IMG/VR virus record: IMGVR_UViG_3300033571_025807
Location: 1 to 26,809 of that record
DNA: 26,809 nucleotides
Direction: 5' to 3' (one strand)
Source: a virus
Shown here: positions 6,277 to 26,808 of the stretch, one piece after another
Numbering within the stretch: position 1 is the first letter of the stretch
Layout: every line of letters starts with the position of its first letter
Notes under the pieces: model-generated
Told to the model about the DNA's origin: nothing
The model's database searches: none
The model's input: the letters and a program-made list of their open reading frames with translations, nothing else
Made by a program: the position numbers and the translations under genes

Positions 6277-6330
6277 TGTTGTTCCTTTTTGAGGGTGTGT
6301 ATGGTTTGTGTTGGTTGAATATTGGGTCAT

Positions 6331-6675
6331 TTATACTCCCGTTTGTACACGCACATTGGCATTCAGTGTGCGGAGTGCGTCTAGTGATGTTCGCACGGTC
6401 AGTAATTTTTCTCGTTTAGATTTAACTAACGCTTCACTAATCTTATACGAATAAGCCTCGTCAGAAAGTTTGTAGTCCGCCCATGCTTCTCGTTCTTTAA
6501 TGCTTCCTTTGGCGGCTAGGTATTCTTTAGCCCAATTACCTTTCATGAGCGCATCTTTTTTAGCGGCGTCAACAGCAAGGGTTTCAAAGGCTTCTGTCTC
6601 TTCTTCAAGTATCCCCAAGAGACGCATGATTTCCGATTCAATTTCTACCTGCGATATAGGTTGCGATCTAGCCAT
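6331..6675 (-). CDS. Conserved phage-type hypothetical protein, 114 residues
   Basis: The ATG at 6675 is preferred over an upstream start at 6705 because GAGGG lies just before it and because the junction with the preceding gene is the 8-bp overlap ATGGCTAG, also used at 8066-8073. The product is nearly all helix with alternating charge (EIMRLLGILEEETEAFETLA, EYLAAKGSIKEREAWADYK, SLDALRTLNANVRVQTGV). The ending ALRTLNANVRVQT is one I recall from proteins next to replication genes in actinophages. Function unknown. Confidence 0.7.
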   Translation of the reverse strand: MARSQPISQVEIESEIMRLLGILEEETEAFETLAVDAAKKDALMKGNWAKEYLAAKGSIKEREAWADYKLSDEAYSYKISEALVKSKREKLLTVRTSLDALRTLNANVRVQTGV

Positions 6676-7195
6676 TTTTTCCCTCGCTGAGTTCTGTGAA
6701 GTCACATTTTTGTAAAGCCAAAATTTGGTCTTTATTCCATTCGTAGGCTGACTGACCTAAATATGTTGCGGTCATCTGTTCAAGAATCCAAGCATCGCAT
6801 TTGTCGTTTCCATCAGCACCCGAGAAGATTATCCCAGTTTTCGCTGTGATTGCCGACATTACGTCTATTTTCCCTGAGTTACCTTTTCCTGTGGCAAACT
6901 TTGCCCTACAGGTCGGCGGGATTATCACGACAGGTATTCCTAGTTCGCGCATTGCTACTTTGATTACTCCACCTAGTTCGCCTATTGAGTGGGCTTGAGA
7001 GTATTGGGAAGCATATGAATAGCCTTCAATTGCGACTATTTCTATTCTTTCGTTTTTTGCGATTTCACTAATTATGTTTTTTATTTCAATTAATCTAGAC
7101 GCACCGCGTTTTTTTGATTTAATACTTCTCGTGACTCCACCCACACTTATGCCCGTGCTGGTTAAAGAAAGGTCTAGACCCATTATGGTTGCCAC
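6668..7195 (-). CDS. RuvC-like Holliday-junction resolvase
   Basis: 175 residues from a GTG at 7195; the ATG at 7183 is an alternative. It has the RNase-H-fold resolvase pattern: GLDLSLTSTGISVGG (first acidic residue D8), IVAIEGYSYAS (E57), and GADGNDKCDAWIL (D131 and D134). Between them IIPPTCRAKFATGKGNSGK resembles the basic segment of phage RuvC homologues. The family cleaves four-way DNA junctions with Mg2+ during replication, recombination and packaging. It is the first gene of the leftward run that contains the modification cassette and is divergent from the replication genes. Confidence 0.85.
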   Translation of the reverse strand: MATIMGLDLSLTSTGISVGGVTRSIKSKKRGASRLIEIKNIISEIAKNERIEIVAIEGYSYASQYSQAHSIGELGGVIKVAMRELGIPVVIIPPTCRAKFATGKGNSGKIDVMSAITAKTGIIFSGADGNDKCDAWILEQMTATYLGQSAYEWNKDQILALQKCDFTELSEGKNG

Positions 7196-7202
7196 ATTTC
7201 AA

Positions 7203-7220
7203 AGATTACTACACTAATCT
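7203..7220. promoter_or_regulatory. Symmetric divergent control region (perfect dyad)
   Basis: AGATTA-CTACAC-TAATCT is a perfect 6+6 inverted repeat. On the plus strand TAATCT lies 6 nt before the GTG at 7227. On the minus strand the same hexamer lies 7 nt before the GTG at 7195. Each arm is therefore placed like a -10 box for a leaderless transcript in its own direction. It could equally be an operator controlling both divergent operons. Confidence 0.5.
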
Positions 7221-7226
7221 ATTTTG

Positions 7227-7661
7227 GTGGTTAACAAAAAATCTGCACCTCAAAAGAAGATTGTCTCAATTGACAAACAAGGAGGCTGGGGTGATGTCTC
7301 GTATTATCACAAACTTGAATGTGGTCACATCGAAGTTCGTAAACGAGCGTCTACGGCACCAAAAATTGCTTGCACTTGGTGTGTCTTAGGCGAAGAAAAA
7401 GGAAAAGAGTTACGCGCCCTAACATTGGTACAGCCGCCTACTTTGGAAGAGGTTTGGGATTTTTACGACAGCACCATCAATGAAGAAGTTGATATTGCGC
7501 AATTGCGTGCTGGTCTTGCTAGTGCGATAGGTTGTCCACAGGACAGTGTTGAGGTCGTCGCAGAGGTTGTGGAAAACAATGTTCTAAAGGTTATGTATGT
7601 CAATGTTTTCCTTGATTTGGAAACTGCAAAAAGAATTGCAAAGTACGAAAAGAATATTTGA
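7227..7661 (+). CDS. Small Zn-site protein, hypothetical
   Basis: 144 residues from the GTG at 7227 (TTG at 7224 is the other option; neither has a Shine-Dalgarno). A beta-rich N-terminal part contains LECGHIEV and IACTWCVLG, a C-x-H ... C-x2-C set that probably binds zinc and that I associate with small actinophage proteins. After a linker (PPTLEEVWDFYDST) the C-terminal half is an alpha/beta region (QLRAGLASAIGCPQDSVEVV ... VMYVNVFLDLETAKRIAK). It is the first gene of the rightward replication run. Role unknown; DNA binding is plausible. Confidence 0.65.
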   Translation: MVNKKSAPQKKIVSIDKQGGWGDVSYYHKLECGHIEVRKRASTAPKIACTWCVLGEEKGKELRALTLVQPPTLEEVWDFYDSTINEEVDIAQLRAGLASAIGCPQDSVEVVAEVVENNVLKVMYVNVFLDLETAKRIAKYEKNI

Positions 7662-16390: not shown

Positions 16391-16423
16391 AAAAAAAGAG
16401 CGCCTTTCGGCGCTCTTTTCTTT
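16391..16423 (-). terminator. Intrinsic terminator
   Basis: AAAAGAGCGCC and GGCGCTCTTTT form an 11-bp perfect stem with a TTTC loop. On the minus strand a run of T follows. It lies 30 bp after the stop of the 16455-16697 gene. The flanking T on the plus strand makes it structurally bidirectional. Confidence 0.85.
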
Positions 16424-16859: not shown

Positions 16860-17387
16860 ATGAATAATATACCTAGAAACACTCAACAACTATCCCAAAC
16901 CCTAATTCTATTACCTACCGTTAGAAACCTTGAAGAGGCACTTAACGAATGTCTTGAATATGATGCGGTTATCACAGCGGGTCCACAGGCTGACGAGGTC
17001 AGCGACTTTGGTCACCCGATGCATAAAGTCGTGGACTTTAGAGATACCTCAATGTTGACATCAGGCGGTCCGACATATGAAAATGTGTGCGAATTGATGG
17101 AATTTGGAATTGGTGTTCCAAAACTACTAGTCCACTGTCATGCGGGAATTTCCCGTTCAACAGCAACAGCATGGGGTGTAGCAATAGGAAACGGGGTTGA
17201 CCCGTTGGAAGCATTCCTTCAACTAAAACAGAACCACCCCAATGAGCGAGGTTTTTCAGGTTTCCGTCACGGCGTTCAACGCACATTTGCACCCAACAGA
17301 CTCATTGTCTCGCACCTTGAAAAATACTTCAACCTAGAAGGTGTACTCGTCCCTATCCGTGACAAGTACGCATCGCGAGGTTGGTAA
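16860..17387 (+). CDS. Dual-specificity/tyrosine phosphatase-like protein
   Basis: 175 residues. The P-loop signature LLVHCHAGISRSTATA is complete: H92, nucleophile C93, R99 and S100 in HC-x5-RS. The upstream HKVVDFRDTS (55-64) supplies the likely general-acid aspartate. The LTSGGPTYENVCELMEFGI and PLEAFLQLKQNHP segments fit the small DSP fold. The enzyme would remove phosphate from Tyr or Ser/Thr in proteins, or from a small molecule or RNA 5' end; the substrate is not evident. It is followed after 2 bp by the deacetylase-fold gene, so both are made together. Confidence 0.85.
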   Translation: MNNIPRNTQQLSQTLILLPTVRNLEEALNECLEYDAVITAGPQADEVSDFGHPMHKVVDFRDTSMLTSGGPTYENVCELMEFGIGVPKLLVHCHAGISRSTATAWGVAIGNGVDPLEAFLQLKQNHPNERGFSGFRHGVQRTFAPNRLIVSHLEKYFNLEGVLVPIRDKYASRGW

Positions 17388-17389
17388 TC

Positions 17390-18334
17390 ATGAAAGTTTT
17401 TTGGAACGACGACTACACAAGCATTGACTACGATTTTGATACATCACGAAAGTCAAACCATATTATTGACTTTCTTCAAGAGGATGCATCACTCCCAAGT
17501 CAACTGAAACAACTGAAAGATATTCCGAATGTTGTTGTATCTGACCCATACGCAAAGACGGATATTTCTGTTTCGGAAAATTTGATTAATGAATGGTTGA
17601 GCGCAAAATTCGTTAGAGCACTCAAAACAAACGATAATCGTTTACTCTCCGAAAGTCAGGGTTTTAGGTGGTGTCCGAATACATACACCTTTGCACGAGC
17701 ACATACCCATGGTTTGATTGCGTCAATTGACGAGGTCATTGACAGTGGCGGAAGGAGCGGAAGTTTGTCTTCAGGTCTTCATCACGCATCAATGACTTCG
17801 GGTTCAGGTTTCTGCACCATCAATGGAATTGCACTAGCATCTATCTACGCATACGAAAAAGGTCTAGAACCAATCGTTTTGGACTTTGACGCACATTGCG
17901 GAGGCGGAACAATGAATTTTCTTGAGCAGTTCAATAGTTTGTTAGAAAAAACAGATAAACCGATTCATCAGATTGATGTGTCAACAAATCATTTTGATTG
18001 TTACGAAAGTGAACGAGATTGGTCTTACCTCAAAGTACGAGTACGGGATGAAAACTATCTTGATTGCATCAAGGAGGCACTTGAGGTCGCACGACCATTA
18101 GTGACAGAAAAAACACTCTTTATCTACAACGCAGGAATTGACCCAGTTGGTTCCTATGAAATTGACGAAGATGTCATCTCAGAACGAGAGGTAATTGTTT
18201 CAGAGTTCATCGGTTCAAGCAACGCAATATTCGCACTAGCAGGTGGATACTCGGGCGCAAACACAACACGAGACGATGTTGCAAAAACACATCTTCACAA
18301 CATCTATGGGTGGGCGGCATGGAATCAGATGTAA
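17390..18334 (+). CDS. Histone-deacetylase-fold enzyme (HDAC/AcuC/amidohydrolase)
   Basis: 314 residues from the ATG at 17390. It carries the catalytic set of Zn-dependent deacetylases. SSGLHHASMTSGSGFCTING (127-146) holds the paired histidines H131/H132 and the GFC loop. IVLDFDAHCGGGTMNF (162-177) holds D165 and Zn ligands D167 and H169. IYNAGIDPVG (245-254) holds Zn ligand D251. ALAGGYSGAN (282-291) places the transition-state tyrosine Y287. The N-terminal ~50 residues (WNDDYTSIDYDFDTSRKS) match the family's opening strand and loop. Possible substrates are acetyl-lysine, acetylated polyamines or other amides. Phage copies are unusual; no other such gene is seen here. It is a partner of the phosphatase. 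Confidence 0.85.
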   Translation: MKVFWNDDYTSIDYDFDTSRKSNHIIDFLQEDASLPSQLKQLKDIPNVVVSDPYAKTDISVSENLINEWLSAKFVRALKTNDNRLLSESQGFRWCPNTYTFARAHTHGLIASIDEVIDSGGRSGSLSSGLHHASMTSGSGFCTINGIALASIYAYEKGLEPIVLDFDAHCGGGTMNFLEQFNSLLEKTDKPIHQIDVSTNHFDCYESERDWSYLKVRVRDENYLDCIKEALEVARPLVTEKTLFIYNAGIDPVGSYEIDEDVISEREVIVSEFIGSSNAIFALAGGYSGANTTRDDVAKTHLHNIYGWAAWNQM

Positions 18335-18588
18335 CTCATGGCTTATACGCCACATATACGAACATGAAGTGTAGGTGCGTTGAATGCAAGCAAGCGGCTG
18401 CCGAATACATGCGTGGGTATAGAAAAACATCCACGGGTAAATCTCATGCTCGCCTTCATCAGATTGTCGCTAATAAACGTTCTCAAATAGCAGTTCAATG
18501 GATTAAAGAACAACACCCTGAGCGTTGGGCTAATATATGCCAAGAGGCTTTGCAGAGCCTAGAGAACAGCGAAAAAGGAGACAAATAA
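18319..18588 (+). CDS. Small Zn-site protein with basic helix, 89 residues
   Basis: The ATG at 18319 is preferred (a GTG at 18310 is also in frame); it overlaps the end of the deacetylase gene. The N-terminal part MESDVTHGLYATYTNMKCRC followed by VECKQAAAEYMRGYRK has H7, C18, C20 and C23, resembling short phage proteins with H-G-x-x-x-x-x-x-x-C-x-C-x-x-C-K/R. The rest is a charged helix (QIAVQWIKEQHPERWANICQ). Probably a nucleic-acid-binding accessory protein. Confidence 0.65.
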   Translation: MESDVTHGLYATYTNMKCRCVECKQAAAEYMRGYRKTSTGKSHARLHQIVANKRSQIAVQWIKEQHPERWANICQEALQSLENSEKGDK

Positions 18589-18589
18589 A

Positions 18590-18820
18590 ATGAGTTCAGA
18601 GAAAGATTATATTTCTGAAGTGTTTGAAGACTTCAATCAAGAAATTGATAAGAAGATTGGTCGCCTTGAGCAAGAGATTAAGGTTCTTCACGAATTGGTA
18701 AAGAAACTTGAATCCGAGACAAAGGTGATTAATGTCTCCAATCTTCAGATTAAGGGTTCACTCGGTGACACCATGAAGACGGTCGGAGATATGGCTAAAA
18801 ACTTAGGCAAATTAGGATAG
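18590..18820 (+). CDS. Coiled-coil protein, 76 residues
   Basis: AAAAGGAG ribosome-binding site, then MSSEKDYISEVFEDFNQEID. Residues 15-50 are a heptad-rich helix (KIGRLEQEIKVLHELVKKLE), and the C-terminus is small and amphipathic (DTMKTVGDMAKNLGKLG). It probably oligomerises. No family recognised; it lies in one run with the Zn-site gene before it. Confidence 0.65.
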   Translation: MSSEKDYISEVFEDFNQEIDKKIGRLEQEIKVLHELVKKLESETKVINVSNLQIKGSLGDTMKTVGDMAKNLGKLG

Positions 18821-21703: not shown

Positions 21704-24511
21704 TTATTTTGCGCGATATCTCTTTACGACTTCTGGACAGCAACCACTTGAATACTTTACGCCGTATTCGCCTTCAGTGAAACCCGCAAACTTCTTACTT
21801 GTTTTGCGGTTTCTCCAAGGATGTTCCAAGGGTAGTAAGTCATTATCCTCTGAATATTTTACATCTTTTGGCTTTTCGGAGTTAAGCAAAGAAAGGAATT
21901 TTGACACACGTTTGTCTGCTTCCTTTCTGCCGTCGTCCAATAAACCGCGAACATAAACAATCTTGAGGTCGCGAAGATTGGTTTTTGCCTTTGATGTTGA
22001 TTTGGCGTTGTGTTGACGGACACGAACAGCGAGGTTGTTGATGTCGTCACTAGTAAGGGTGGGAGGCTTCTTTTTTGCCTTTGGGACACCTTTAAAAGAA
22101 ATCAAACCGTTGTCAAATGAAGATTTCTTTCTATTTGCAGAACCTTGACGGCGTGGATTGTTCACAGGGCTGTTATCCCCACGGATGCCTGAAAGGCGGT
22201 TGAAGTCAGACACATTGGTACATGGCAACCAAACGGTTTTACCGTCACCTGCCGTATATCTACGAATTCCTATACAGCCAAGATTTCGTGCACGGATACG
22301 GGCAGACTCAGGATTACTAAATACATCAGGGTCGGTCGAACGGCTAACAAAGTTGACGAAACCCTTCTCTTCTAAGGATTTTTCTGAATCAATATCATCA
22401 GTGCTTTCTGTCTCGGTATCGCCCGTTCCAACAAATTCCCAGTTACCAAATTTCATCAAAGCAGGAATATTATCCACTCGTTGACGCTTGCCACCATCAA
22501 CGGTCATCATTCCATGTAGGTCGCCTTCTTCAGGCATGCGATTAGGGGCAAACAGTTTGCGGTTGCCGGAAGTGGCAAGCAAGACATAGCCATCATCCTT
22601 GGACTCAGCCTTAGACGCAAGTTCTGGTGGTTCTTTGTATATCTCTACTGAATCGTGAATCACAACAGGGATTCCCATCTCTTTTAACCTAGTTTTTATT
22701 TCTTCAGATATAAGACTATCGTCCTTTAAGGCAATATAGGAGATGTCATTGACGGAAACTCCGCCCATGATTTGTGCTTCAACATAAGTTTGTTCTTTAA
22801 ACTTTTTGCCCAAATCCCCATCGGCAGAAAAGCCACTCCCGTTAATCATTCCCAACCCCATGCCAGGGTCGTTTATTGGTGAGACACCATGATGCCCGAC
22901 GCCTAGGCTATCTCCAGCAGTAAAAGTCGAACGCTCTTCAATTGAATGTTTCAGAACAACACCAACCCCACCATATGTATCTGTGTATTCTTTATCCAAG
23001 CCACCAACACCATCAGGCATGAACATCGCATAAATTGGTCTATTTTTCCCTTCAAATCCACCAGCGGGCAGACCCATCAAGTTTTGCTCTCCCCTAAGCC
23101 TCGCTTTGAGGTAAAAACGCTTGCGATTGTCTGCCTGCCATTTGTCGTATGAAGCAATTTCATCAAATTGGTCATTAAAAAAATTGCGTTTAGCCTGAAA
23201 AAAGTTTTTCATTTTACCGTCCGCAAGCATTTGGGTAAAAACATCGCTGTGCATCTGAACAACAACACGCTTGTTAGGGTTGGCAACAGCCTGTTTTGCG
23301 GCTTTTTCGGCGAGAGCAAACTGGTCAACATATTCATAGTCGTCCCCCAGCCAACCATTGCCAACCCGTCCGGCAAAAATTGACAAACCAACCATGTAAC
23401 GACCTCTTATGAAGTCTTGTACTGGTGAGATTTCCATTTTTCCACCGTCTAAATTTTTGATAAAAGTTTTAAAATCTAAATCAAATTTTTTACCTTTGCC
23501 AGCATCGTAAGCCTTTTTTCTGGCTTCTTCCAATTTTTCTAATACGCGTTTAGATACTTGACTGTCTAAATCGTTTATACGATCGTAGAAACCACCCCTA
23601 ACGCCATCAACATCATTGTCAAAGCCCTCAATTAAATATTTTCGATTCTCTTCCCACAAGCCTTCAGGAATAACCTTCATATCTTCAACAGAAAATGTTC
23701 CAGCCCAACCATATTTTTTTTTCCATTCAGCGCGAACCGTTTTACCTTTTTTTGCGCGACTAATCATTTCCTTGGCTACATCATCTGCCAATTTTTTGAA
23801 ATCGTCTAGCCATTCCTTTGGCTGATGCTCAATCATCAAAGGTGCCCAAGGACGACCAGCCTTACGGGCTTCCATTAAATCATCGGTAGGTTTAACTAGG
23901 TCTGAAACCCTGCCAGCCCTTTTTACGGCATCAACAACAGTACTTGCAACGACAGGAACATTGTCTTTCCCATCACGACCTTGACGAAACCCGTCACCGT
24001 CACCATCAAACTCAGACCCTTCAAAAAACTCACCAATGTCCCCAATCCTGGGACCTAAAGACTTGCCCGAAAAGGAACCAGTCACAATCCCACCACCCGT
24101 CAGGGTTGCGATACCAGTAATAGGCTTTTCGTTGAGGTTCTCCCAACCGTTCTTAGGTTTCTTGGGTTCACAAACGGCATAGTATTTCTTGCCAGCAAGT
24201 ATCACCGTTCGTACACCACTACATCCTCGTGCACGCGAAATCGCTAAAGCGTCAGCACGATTTTCGTAATACGCATTAGATTTTGTTTCTAAGCGCTTAG
24301 TCCGTTGAACAATTGTTGGTTGAGGTTTCTTCTTGCGTGAAGCACGGACTTTGAGATATTCCTCTTCACCCTTTTTGATTGCTACATATTCCTCGGGCGA
24401 GCCACAGGGCATCCATCCGTCGCCTTGCTCGTGGGCTCCTTGACATCCAAGCATGCGTGCGACACGAAGAGCCTGTTCTCGTGTTGTTGCATTAGTTGGC
24501 TTTTCGGTCAT
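21704..24511 (-). CDS. 935-residue protein with ART/DUF3626-like core and Cys repeats
   Basis: Three copies of a short Cys repeat (A-x4-R-x-x-GC-x-G ... C) lie at 14-36, 88-114 and 737-764 (cysteines C23/C36, C97/C114, C746/C764). Two Ca-loop-like segments occur: DGDGDGFRQGRDG (169-181) and DNDVDGVRGG (298-307). The core around 490-595 has RPIYAMF (R491), ERSTFTAGDS (526-535) and TYVEAQIMGGVSVNDISYIA (575-594), resembling DUF3626 and the R-S/T-E triad of ADP-ribosyltransferase folds. The middle (~310-470) is helical. It lies upstream of the capsid gene on the same strand, so it may be a head-associated or injected internal protein. It ends GVKYSSGCCPEVVKRY. Enzymatic activity is not proven. 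Confidence 0.7.
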   Translation of the reverse strand: MTEKPTNATTREQALRVARMLGCQGAHEQGDGWMPCGSPEEYVAIKKGEEEYLKVRASRKKKPQPTIVQRTKRLETKSNAYYENRADALAISRARGCSGVRTVILAGKKYYAVCEPKKPKNGWENLNEKPITGIATLTGGGIVTGSFSGKSLGPRIGDIGEFFEGSEFDGDGDGFRQGRDGKDNVPVVASTVVDAVKRAGRVSDLVKPTDDLMEARKAGRPWAPLMIEHQPKEWLDDFKKLADDVAKEMISRAKKGKTVRAEWKKKYGWAGTFSVEDMKVIPEGLWEENRKYLIEGFDNDVDGVRGGFYDRINDLDSQVSKRVLEKLEEARKKAYDAGKGKKFDLDFKTFIKNLDGGKMEISPVQDFIRGRYMVGLSIFAGRVGNGWLGDDYEYVDQFALAEKAAKQAVANPNKRVVVQMHSDVFTQMLADGKMKNFFQAKRNFFNDQFDEIASYDKWQADNRKRFYLKARLRGEQNLMGLPAGGFEGKNRPIYAMFMPDGVGGLDKEYTDTYGGVGVVLKHSIEERSTFTAGDSLGVGHHGVSPINDPGMGLGMINGSGFSADGDLGKKFKEQTYVEAQIMGGVSVNDISYIALKDDSLISEEIKTRLKEMGIPVVIHDSVEIYKEPPELASKAESKDDGYVLLATSGNRKLFAPNRMPEEGDLHGMMTVDGGKRQRVDNIPALMKFGNWEFVGTGDTETESTDDIDSEKSLEEKGFVNFVSRSTDPDVFSNPESARIRARNLGCIGIRRYTAGDGKTVWLPCTNVSDFNRLSGIRGDNSPVNNPRRQGSANRKKSSFDNGLISFKGVPKAKKKPPTLTSDDINNLAVRVRQHNAKSTSKAKTNLRDLKIVYVRGLLDDGRKEADKRVSKFLSLLNSEKPKDVKYSEDNDLLPLEHPWRNRKTSKKFAGFTEGEYGVKYSSGCCPEVVKRYRAK

Positions 24512-24520
24512 CAGGTTTCT

Positions 24521-24772
24521 TTAATTTTTGTTATCTTCGGCTTCAGGGAAATACGGCATAGACATTGAGAATTCCTCAAATAGTTCGTCTATTTGGCTTT
24601 CGTTCTCTTTATCCATAAGGTACAAAACCATGGACTCAAGGTCGCCGTCTTCGCCGTTTTCGTTAGCAAAACCATAGGCGACAGTAAGTATGCGTGAGCG
24701 TTTTTCTTGGTTTTTTACTGTTTCAAAAAGTTGGTTTTTAATAGCCTCTTTTTGCTCCGTTGTTAATTTCAT
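24521..24772 (-). CDS. Small acidic hypothetical protein, 83 residues
   Basis: Begins MKLTTEQKEAIKNQLFETVK. Mostly helical and strongly acidic toward the C-terminus (YLMDKENESQIDELFEEFSM, then FPEAEDNKN). Its ATG shares a base with the stop of the large upstream gene (TAATG), so translation is coupled. It lies between two large head-region genes and could be a chaperone or scaffold-like small protein. No family recognised. Confidence 0.65.
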   Translation of the reverse strand: MKLTTEQKEAIKNQLFETVKNQEKRSRILTVAYGFANENGEDGDLESMVLYLMDKENESQIDELFEEFSMSMPYFPEAEDNKN

Positions 24773-26808
24773 TATGCGTTTCTCCTTCTAGGTGCTCGTG
24801 GTGCCCCACCAGCAGGTACGCCAATTTTTTGCGCAGAGAAAGAAAGTGTTCCTCCGCCTGATGGAAGGTTTGAAACAAACCATTGTTTAACAAACTCTCC
24901 GCGAGGCTTATTGCCTGACGGGTCATCAAAAGCAAATATTATTTCTTGATGCGAAAAAGTTTTTCCTTGACGAGCCTGACTAAGTATTGACCTTATTCTC
25001 ATGTATTCCGCTTCACTACTGATGAGACCACCAGCACCAAACTTCTCAAAAAACTTTAATTCTTGTTCAAGTTTAGACAGATTACCACGACCGAGAGGGC
25101 TCGGGTTTATGAATCCAACTCGCGCCCAAACGTATGTGCCGTCATCTACCGCGCCGACCTTTGCGGAACTTATGCCCATTTTCTTTAGATAAAGGAAAGC
25201 GTGTTGATTGTAGATGGTTTGAATATCAGCACCTCTGTCTAATTTACTGCCGATAAACATTGTGTTCTGTTTGACATAGGTTGAATTCACTGACCTACTA
25301 GAAGAACCAACACTACGTAGCACATTTCCATCTTTGTCAATTTCATTAAACCTGACAGTTACTTGGAAAGAACGACCAGACCCAGTCACCGAGGCTACGG
25401 CGTTGTAGAGTTTACCGTTTGCTCCTTCAATCCTTGAATGACCGTATGCTTCTGTAAGGTAAGCAATTTTCTCTGCGGTAGGAAGCGCATCAAATTTTGC
25501 TTTAGTCATGTCAATGTATTTGGCGGTGTTGTTGGGGTCACGCTTCTGTAGATACTTGGCAAGTTTTCCTTGCCTTCTTTTAATAGCATCAGCAATCTGT
25601 GATTTAATTGTTTTGATTACATCTTCATCAAGAGGCTTTACGACATTTGAAGCATCTGGGTTGAAAACCAACCCTTGCTCTTGTCTCTGTATAGCCTTAC
25701 GAATTTCTGGTTCAATTTTGCTAAGAAGGCTCAAGCCCTGTTCATATCTTCCGATAGTTCCTTGATTCTTGGCAATTTTTTCCATTATTGATGCACGGAA
25801 TCTTTCTTTTTCAAGATCGTTTGCACCACGAGGATTCGCAAGTAAATTCCAGTTTTCGCGCTGTTTTTCTCTTAGTTCAACAAGTCTTGCTTCTATTTGT
25901 TGTTTGGTGCGTAAGTTTCCATTCGCACCTATTCTTTCCAAGAATTGTCCCTGTATTGCTAACAGCCTATTTTGTACATCACCGTACTGTTGTGGGTTCT
26001 GTGCGTACCTTTCAACTTCTGCGAGTAGCGCATAGTTGAAATCTCTGACAGCAGCCTGTCTTCCTTCGTTTTCGTTAAATATATAAGCATCAGCATGCAA
26101 GTTGAATTGTGCTCCATTTTCAGGACTCACAATCTCGGTGAGCATGCGCTCTACCAATGCTTCGTTTTCAGGTGAGAATTTCGCTACCTCGGCTACTTGT
26201 GGTTCAAATTTGAGTGCTTTAGGTGCATCTGTTGTTTTTGGTTTAGCAGGAACATCAGGTTTTACATCTGGTGCAACTTCAGGCTTGTCCGCAGAACGTG
26301 GTGTGTTGTGTTTTACAACCTCACCCCATGCTTCAATGACTGATTCAATTTCTTCCTTCAGTTCGCGTACATTTATTTCTCTATCAGCACCACGAACAAC
26401 ATCAAGAGGACTTACATCGCCTCTAACTTGTCCTAACTGAATTCGCTGAAGACGAGCATTAAGCGCGATTATGTTTGCTTCAGCGATACGCAAAGCAGTA
26501 CGTTTTTTCGCTTCAGCGTCTCGGTCGTTGGCACCAGTGAAGTTTTTTGGGTCATTTAGAATTTCCAAGCGCTTTCCCAAAACATCTCTGTTCATACGCT
26601 CAACAAAAGTGTCGTCTCTTAATACATCGTTAAGGTTAATGACGCGTTTTTTGACCATTTTAGGTTTTGGAGTTTTTGGCTTTTCAATAGCCTGTTGAGC
26701 CGCTTCTGCCCGTACTTCTTCAGAACGAGCCGCGTTGTCACTGTCTCCTCGTGCTGGTTTAGGGCGTCGTGGTTTAACAACTTTGGGCTCAACAACATCG
26801 CGTGCAGG
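24772..26808 (-). CDS. Large head-region protein, 5' end beyond the window
   Basis: Partial. The frame stays open through the window's right edge: 50 more codons precede the first in-window ATG (26658), encoding a Pro/Arg/Lys/Ala-rich tail (KVVKPRRPKPARGDSDNAAR in part), so the true start is probably further right. The product has a long helical region, an acidic/Pro linker (KPEVAPDVKPDVPAKPKTTD), more coiled-coil helices, then a folded C-terminal domain with YNAVASVTGSGRSFQVTVRF, SVGSSSRSVN, and KKMGISSAKVGAVDDGTYVW followed by ARVGFINPS. It ends with a Gly/Ala/Pro/Arg tail (GAPRAPRRRNA). The G-x-YVWAR-x-GF stretch is reminiscent of segments in minor head and MuF-type phage proteins; I cannot name the family. 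It is likely a virion protein, given its position upstream of the head genes. Confidence 0.6.
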   Translation of the reverse strand, partial: PARDVVEPKVVKPRRPKPARGDSDNAARSEEVRAEAAQQAIEKPKTPKPKMVKKRVINLNDVLRDDTFVERMNRDVLGKRLEILNDPKNFTGANDRDAEAKKRTALRIAEANIIALNARLQRIQLGQVRGDVSPLDVVRGADREINVRELKEEIESVIEAWGEVVKHNTPRSADKPEVAPDVKPDVPAKPKTTDAPKALKFEPQVAEVAKFSPENEALVERMLTEIVSPENGAQFNLHADAYIFNENEGRQAAVRDFNYALLAEVERYAQNPQQYGDVQNRLLAIQGQFLERIGANGNLRTKQQIEARLVELREKQRENWNLLANPRGANDLEKERFRASIMEKIAKNQGTIGRYEQGLSLLSKIEPEIRKAIQRQEQGLVFNPDASNVVKPLDEDVIKTIKSQIADAIKRRQGKLAKYLQKRDPNNTAKYIDMTKAKFDALPTAEKIAYLTEAYGHSRIEGANGKLYNAVASVTGSGRSFQVTVRFNEIDKDGNVLRSVGSSSRSVNSTYVKQNTMFIGSKLDRGADIQTIYNQHAFLYLKKMGISSAKVGAVDDGTYVWARVGFINPSPLGRGNLSKLEQELKFFEKFGAGGLISSEAEYMRIRSILSQARQGKTFSHQEIIFAFDDPSGNKPRGEFVKQWFVSNLPSGGGTLSFSAQKIGVPAGGAPRAPRRRNA

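Follow-up and report, generated by a model that had tools for sequence, protein, structure and literature searches.

A phage-rich subfamily of predicted histone-deacetylase-fold deacylases whose genes recurrently adjoin a predicted phosphatase gene

The open reading frame at positions 17390-18334 (+ strand) of the viral record IMGVR_UViG_3300033571_025807 (26,809 bases; hereafter "the window", meaning the whole stretch analysed) encodes a predicted zinc deacylase of 314 residues which, judged by its sequence and modelled fold, its metal ligands and its catalytic tyrosine, belongs to the HDAC/AcuC superfamily. The sampled diversity of its subfamily is mostly viral. Its gene directly follows that of a predicted Cys-based phosphatase, a recurrent partner that is new in this analysis and was missing from an earlier, sequence-only reading of the HDAC gene. 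We favor, tentatively and with slightly less than even confidence, the explanation that the two enzymes remove modifications during infection and that their target lies in a NAD/ADP-ribose-linked conflict pathway. Among cultured phages, a single annotation accounts for essentially all that is known of HDAC-fold enzymes. A family that is widespread in phages of abundant actinobacteria, with its recurrent phosphatase partner and its bacterial homologues in ADP-ribose operons, opens a testable way towards a new kind of reversible modification in the conflict of phage and host, and adds a candidate enzyme to ARG-type systems, whose chemistry is only predicted.

The reading frame is intact and open from its ATG, with the stop codon at 18332-18334. 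Residues 73-293 match the Pfam family PF00850 (Hist_deacetyl) with an E-value of 4.7e-16 and 59.4 bits, compared to a cut-off of 27.9. The AlphaFold2 model, calculated with 50 aligned sequences (pLDDT 93.4, pTM 0.92), can be superposed onto many HDAC chains with Z of about 30-35, which supports the arginase/deacetylase fold and bears out the histone-deacetylase assignment of the earlier reading. The top match in the PDB is HdaH of V. cholerae (VcHdaH, 9gkv) with a VIA Z of 35.1 and an rmsd of 2.2 for 287 residues, followed by HDAC11 of Leptospira (9gz5, Z 33.2), a lysine deacylase (5zmp, Z 31.6) and the acetylpolyamine amidohydrolase msAPAH (Z 31.4). A search of solved structures with the family profile gives the same ranking, with 145.7 bits for VcHdaH, about 113 for HDAC6 and 52-65 for acetylpolyamine amidohydrolases (APAHs). 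When viral models (BFVD) were searched by structure, giant-virus HDACs were the only matches at E≤0.001. The gene is under strong purifying selection: dN/dS is 0.035-0.104 in seven close phage gene pairs and 0.146 between the window and locus L008, while synonymous sites are saturated in the comparison of the window with L003.

The catalytically important residues named by the sequence-only reading (H131/H132, D165, D167, H169, D251 and Y287) are present in HDAC motif contexts as it had placed them. The first six are invariant in 117 relatives (78 viral and 39 cellular), and Tyr287 is kept in all 78 viral and in 37 of the 39 cellular relatives, the remaining two having gaps at this position. 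As SSGLHHA and DFDAHCG were the search patterns for most loci, the conservation of both motifs is partly by construction; the same residues are conserved in 14 cellular relatives found by profile. SSGLHHA (residues 127-133; 17768-17788, +) is the double-His general base/acid motif. DFDAHCGGGT (residues 165-174; 17882-17911, +) contains the zinc ligands Asp167 and His169, the first relay residue Asp165, and Gly172; we take the roles of Asp165, Asp167 and His169 to be those of the corresponding motif in the HDAC8 structure. The third zinc ligand is Asp251 (18140-18142, +), and the catalytic Tyr287 belongs to the motif AGGY (residues 284-287; 18239-18250, +).

Two further positions set the family apart from other HDACs. 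Position 172, that of the second charge-relay residue, is glycine in 116 of 117 family members, compared to asparagine (11) or aspartate (1) in all 12 controls, which are further PF00850 paralogues encoded by genomes that also carry family members. Position 196 (17975-17977, +) is aspartate in 117 of 117 members, compared to serine in 11 of the 12 controls; in HDAC8, this serine is a ligand of potassium site 1. The active site described earlier as complete is therefore complete in its metal ligands, His pair and tyrosine, but non-standard at Gly172 and Asp196 in nearly all members. Passages of PMC11532494 give the ligand roles in DFDAHC-type motifs and describe the second charge-relay residue (Asp/Asn/Gln) as conserved; its absence here is a variation within the HDAC superfamily and not a reason for exclusion from it. 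With a partner of His132 unlike that of other HDACs, the rate or the substrate of the enzyme may be changed.

The motifs of the foot pocket also differ, with SSGLHH and AGGY in the family compared to RPPGHH and EGGY in 9 of the 12 controls. In the passages of PMC11532494 on the meaning of the RPP foot-pocket motif, RPP and EGGY are associated with a narrow pocket in robust deacetylases, and VcHdaH (SGGYHH, GGGY) and human HDAC11 (GGGFHH, SGGY) are described as accommodating longer acyl chains. SSGLHH and AGGY resemble the motifs of these long-chain deacylases, so the group removed may not be acetyl, as had been supposed; judging from the motifs, longer acyl chains should also fit the phage enzyme. 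Such open foot-pocket motifs (RPP absent, a small X in XGGY) are a feature of class IV/cluster 5, and the two nearest structures, 9gkv and 9gz5, are from this group. VcHdaH (cluster 5b; 9gkv and 9gky), a weak lysine de-decanoylase according to the same passages, is the best match by both structure and profile, and likewise lacks RPP and has a small residue before GGY. However, it is only 20% identical to the phage protein and has HHGDGT and serine where the phage family has HCGGGT and aspartate. The class IV enzymes (Leptospira 9gz5 and human HDAC11) also have open foot-pocket motifs by the rule of PMC11532494, but identity is 18%. AcuC-type bacterial deacetylases share the Pfam family and the catalytic residues, whereas their RPP, EGGY and relay asparagine are not shared by the phage family.

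A scan with the window protein detected relatives on 17 viral contigs, and a scan with an 11-sequence alignment extended this to 92 IMG/VR contigs, of which 80 were listed, near-duplicates included: L002, for instance, is the sequence of the window itself, and L065 that of Rhodococcus phage E3. Only 2 of 50,697 phage records, both of Rhodococcus phage E3, match at E≤1e-5 (32.7% identity), and seven match at E≤1. The earlier remark that such genes are rare in phages thus holds for cultured phages but fails for uncultured ones, and this rarity is the part of the earlier reading that has to be given up, whereas its fold and residues stand. The E3 protein (gp202, "putative histone deacetylase") belongs to the same subfamily, being 32.7% identical over 96%, but has no adjoining phosphatase, and PF00782 finds none in the E3 record. 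Weak HDAC-like matches were seen in Microbacterium phage Magritte (OR553905.1, 111680-112159, E 1e-4) and in a 735 kb uncultured phage (LR756501.1, 593322-594038, E 0.03). Giant viruses also encode HDAC-fold enzymes, the APAHs treated in passages of PMC9992855, but all ten homologues given there are from Imitervirales and belong to another branch of the superfamily. We found no phage HDAC-fold enzyme beyond this giant-virus work in the literature covered, which lies mostly outside subscription journals.

Relatives of the HDAC gene were located at 26 loci on genome contigs. Among 296 drawn genomes of the class Acidimicrobiia, 13 were positive by profile search, the query genome counted; in the class of genome G008, the one positive among 296 genomes was the query itself. 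The Acidimicrobiia genome G225 carries three copies of the subfamily (L147, L156 and L160), two of them in NrtR-ARG-DSP operons. NCBIfam and PHROG contain no model that any of 50 subfamily representatives matches at 1e-3. A tree of 91 proteins (48 viral and 31 cellular family members and the 12 control paralogues; quick method with SH-aLRT supports only) separates the subfamily from the controls with a support of 99. Since the controls are taken as AcuC-type from their strong PF00850 scores, the subfamily does not group with presumed AcuC-type enzymes. One clade with a support of 98 comprises 45 viral and 9 cellular rows, and at least six changes of label from virus to cell or back fall on branches with good support, which suggests that the gene has moved repeatedly between phages and cells.

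The partner gene (16860-17387, +) encodes a predicted Cys-based phosphatase of the PTP/DSP superfamily with 175 residues, identified by its CX5R motif, profile and model. Its stop codon is 2 bases upstream of the HDAC ATG, and from this spacing the two genes are probably translated together. The phosphate-binding loop HCHAGISRS (17133-17159, +) contains Cys93 and Arg99, both invariant in 23 phosphatase sequences. A profile of the phosphatase alignment (A3) matches dual-specificity phosphatases in the PDB with a best E-value of 5.1e-9, and the AlphaFold2 model (pLDDT 88.6) superposes onto DUSP28 with a VIA Z of 13.1 over 128 residues. The window phosphatase matches no Pfam family at 1e-3 and misses the DSPc cut-off, and we therefore describe it as DSP-like and do not file it as PF00782. 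Among its relatives, those of L086, L088 and L053 are above the PF00782 (DSPc) cut-off and those of L044, L048 and L102 below it. Neither the HDAC protein nor the phosphatases match a PADLOC defence model.

Of 82 viral loci, 37 have the phosphatase gene directly upstream of the HDAC gene and in the same orientation; one has it elsewhere and 44 lack it. When viral loci are clustered at 70% HDAC identity, the pair is present in 10 of 37 clusters. Counted from the phosphatase, at least 50 of the matches listed are at least 39% identical to that of the window, of which 33 abut an HDAC gene, 16 lack one within the flanking sequence covered and one is at a contig edge; none of 28 more distant phosphatases among the matches listed abuts one. 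The counts in both directions indicate that the pair is recurrent, not obligate. Identity between the phage-type and the cell-type phosphatases is just 16-22%, and by this comparison they may be separate recruits. In L049, the second gene before that of the HDAC encodes a HAD protein resembling HAD_SAK_2 (6641-7294; 26.9 bits compared to a cut-off of 27.5) and the gene between the two encodes ThyX; the same arrangement occurs in L050, L054, L068, L072, L076 and L080. The HAD protein is perhaps a substitute phosphatase in these phages.

The bacterial members of the subfamily have a distinctive gene context. In two Acidimicrobiia-type loci (L086 and L088), the order is a divergent NrtR-type Nudix regulator, a fusion of ADP-ribosylglycohydrolase (ARG) with a vWA-like region, a phosphatase and the HDAC; the Pfam E-values in L086 are 5.5e-19 for NUDIX, 3.3e-11 for NrtR_WHD, 5.6e-45 for ADP_ribosyl_GH and 2.4e-10 for DSPc. 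L147 has ARPP in addition to other components of this kind, and in L090 ARPP-1 (PF20208, 2.1e-68) is directly upstream of the HDAC. At least one component (phosphatase, ARG/vWA, NrtR or ARPP) is found within 5 kb in 18 of 39 cellular HDAC loci (41 minus the repeat contig L151 and the truncated gene of L108; some contigs counted as cellular, such as L083 and L091, are short and may be phage), compared to none of the 17 loci of control PF00850 paralogues (Fisher p = 0.0004, relatedness ignored); the component models were built from HDAC neighbourhoods, which favors this test set, and the count is 16 of 37 without the exemplars L086 and L090. In the remaining 21 of the 39 loci, none of these components is encoded over the same distance. 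By component, the cellular loci contain DSP in 12, NrtR in 7, ARPP in 5, the ARG domain in 8 and vWA in 9. ARG and vWA were counted separately: L092 and L102 matched the full-length ARG-vWA model through vWA, and L092 is counted for vWA alone.

The same parts list characterizes the ARG-centric host systems, which are proposed to reverse phage ADP-ribosylation (Iyer et al. 2022, PMC9503650, section 3.8), and whose phosphatases are proposed, in the passages concerned, to act on released ADP-ribose products. The main text of PMC9503650, searched for both terms, contains neither "HDAC" nor "AcuC". Bacterial HDAC subfamily members nevertheless stand in such operons, for example in L086, L088, L147 and L160, and the NrtR-like protein of L086 matches the PADLOC model PDC-S07 (E 1.9e-7). 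In Acidimicrobiia, six other ARG regions contain no HDAC and no DSP, which makes the HDAC an optional member of ARG-centric systems. The phages, in contrast, are without ARG (0 of 35 HDAC-bearing phage records), Nudix (0 of 28) and Macro (0 of 28), in records that may be fragments. Thus, we do not file the phage pair as an ARG-centric system, and its link to ADP-ribose is indirect; what the two have in common is the two kinds of enzyme and their order.

In the explanation that we prefer, the HDAC gene would encode a Zn2+-dependent deacylase of a phage-rich subfamily, structurally nearest to the class IV-like VcHdaH and Leptospira HDAC11. A zinc-activated water would attack the acyl amide, with Tyr287 polarizing it and His131 and His132 serving as acid and base. 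Phosphatase and deacylase would act sequentially on one target during infection, one stripping a phosphate and the other hydrolyzing an acyl amide whose chain is possibly longer than acetyl. The target would most likely be some modified molecule from a conflict pathway linked to NAD/ADP-ribose, because bacterial subfamily members are found in NrtR/ARG-vWA/ARPP/phosphatase operons; as these operons are predicted to reverse ADP-ribose modifications, the context points to a role in phage-host conflict. What the phage reverses with the pair would be a modification placed by the host, or one of its own making. A bolder proposal, which we regard as possible but doubtful, is that the deacylase subfamily belongs, so far unrecognised, to actinobacterial ADP-ribose conflict operons, from which actinophages captured the phosphatase-deacylase core as a compact counter-module. 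The captured module would remove from macromolecules a mark bearing phosphate and acyl groups, perhaps ADP-ribose-linked, that hosts or phages had placed there.

Several other explanations were weighed against this one. The enzyme could be a protein lysine deacetylase that acts in the manner of AcuC on acetyl-CoA synthetase, RNA polymerase or nucleoid proteins, beside a phosphatase that is an independent takeover enzyme. Membership of the same superfamily with an intact Zn/Tyr site, the probable actinobacterial host and the demodifying nature of both the phosphatase and the deacylase are in keeping with this. However, the subfamily is clearly split from AcuC-type paralogues, the RPP and EGGY of robust deacetylases are missing, and such a gene context is absent from the 17 control loci, so that we consider a role of this kind unlikely. 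Somewhat less probable still is a small-molecule amidohydrolase, acting on an acyl-polyamine, an acyl-sugar or a nucleotide-linked amide beside a small-molecule phosphatase. Passages of PMC9992855 describe giant-virus APAHs that release spermidine from N-acetylspermidine, msAPAH superposes with a Z of 31.4, and the proposal for ARG-system phosphatases in PMC9503650 also involves small molecules, the released ADP-ribose products; but APAH chains score far lower than VcHdaH with the family profile (52-65 bits compared to 145.7). The polyamine enzymes of cluster 4 are characterized, in passages of PMC11532494, by an extended L2 loop and a head-to-head dimer.

The replacements at positions 172 and 196 raise the question of whether the protein has kept the fold and lost hydrolase activity, as a binding protein or pseudoenzyme. 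The second relay residue is gone and serine is replaced by aspartate in nearly the whole family, but the zinc ligands, both histidines and, two gaps aside, the tyrosine are conserved in 117 sequences under strong purifying selection, and we judge a pseudoenzyme improbable. The poorest candidate, to which we give very little credence, is an eraser of a phage-made modification, with a virion-borne GNAT-like acyltransferase as the writer. A GNAT-like ORF does start within 20 bases of the HDAC end in L033, L034, L035, L039, L041, L042 and L046, and a related stretch is found in the window protein at 24772-26658 (-), next to the capsid genes, with a profile E-value of 6.6e-17. Against this, Pfam Acetyltransf_1 reaches just E 0.019 in L033 and has no match in the window protein, where the motif is degenerate, and most HDAC loci are without a GNAT-like ORF. 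The presence of the GNAT family PF00583 is inconsistent, with 6 of 28 HDAC-bearing phage records at E≤0.001 and two over the cut-off. The GNAT-like stretch HQGKGIG...YTW.RAGY was noted in L033 (3185-4363), L041 (8941-10713), L042 (975-2183), L039 (8883-10085) and L046 (8904-11822).

The window record is viral and contains genes for a capsid protein (PF05065) and a B12-dependent class II ribonucleotide reductase (TIGR02505). A prophage or plasmid origin was rejected on these grounds and from the lack of any match among 72,556 plasmids. The window also encodes a WhiB protein (PF02467, 1.8e-14). Since WhiB is an actinophage marker in the portions of PMC10202952 and PMC6802176 that treat it, the host is probably a (freshwater) actinobacterium. 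A candidate ADP-ribosyltransferase at 21704-24511, picked by eye, was dropped when Pfam, NCBIfam and PDB searches gave it no support.

Downstream of the pair, a small gene of 92 codons (18310-18588, +) overlaps the 3' end of the HDAC gene and recurs in related phages (family 12); its product has weak HNH-like PHROG matches (phrog_4234, E 1e-4; phrog_8936, E 2.8e-5). A second small gene of 76 codons (18590-18820, +), also recurrent in related phages (family 17) and with no Pfam match, is the final member of a + strand group flanked by - strand genes. A strong terminator-like hairpin of 11 pairs with a T run lies 5' of this group (16394-16419, +). Promoter-like matches around the phosphatase-HDAC pair are at chance level (4 found, compared to 4.7 expected). 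Elsewhere in the window are three separate N6/N4 DNA methylase genes (PF01555; 2053-2799, -; 2796-3521, -; 11720-13105, +) and a protein similar to vitamin/queuosine-precursor transporters (5740-6330, -; PF02592, 3.1e-12; TIGR00697, 42.7 bits, under the cut-off). A ParB_N domain protein (4344-5117, -; 1.8e-7) resembles, by eye, the ParB-like protein (family 29) whose gene immediately precedes that of the HDAC in L031, L036, L043, L062 and L071.
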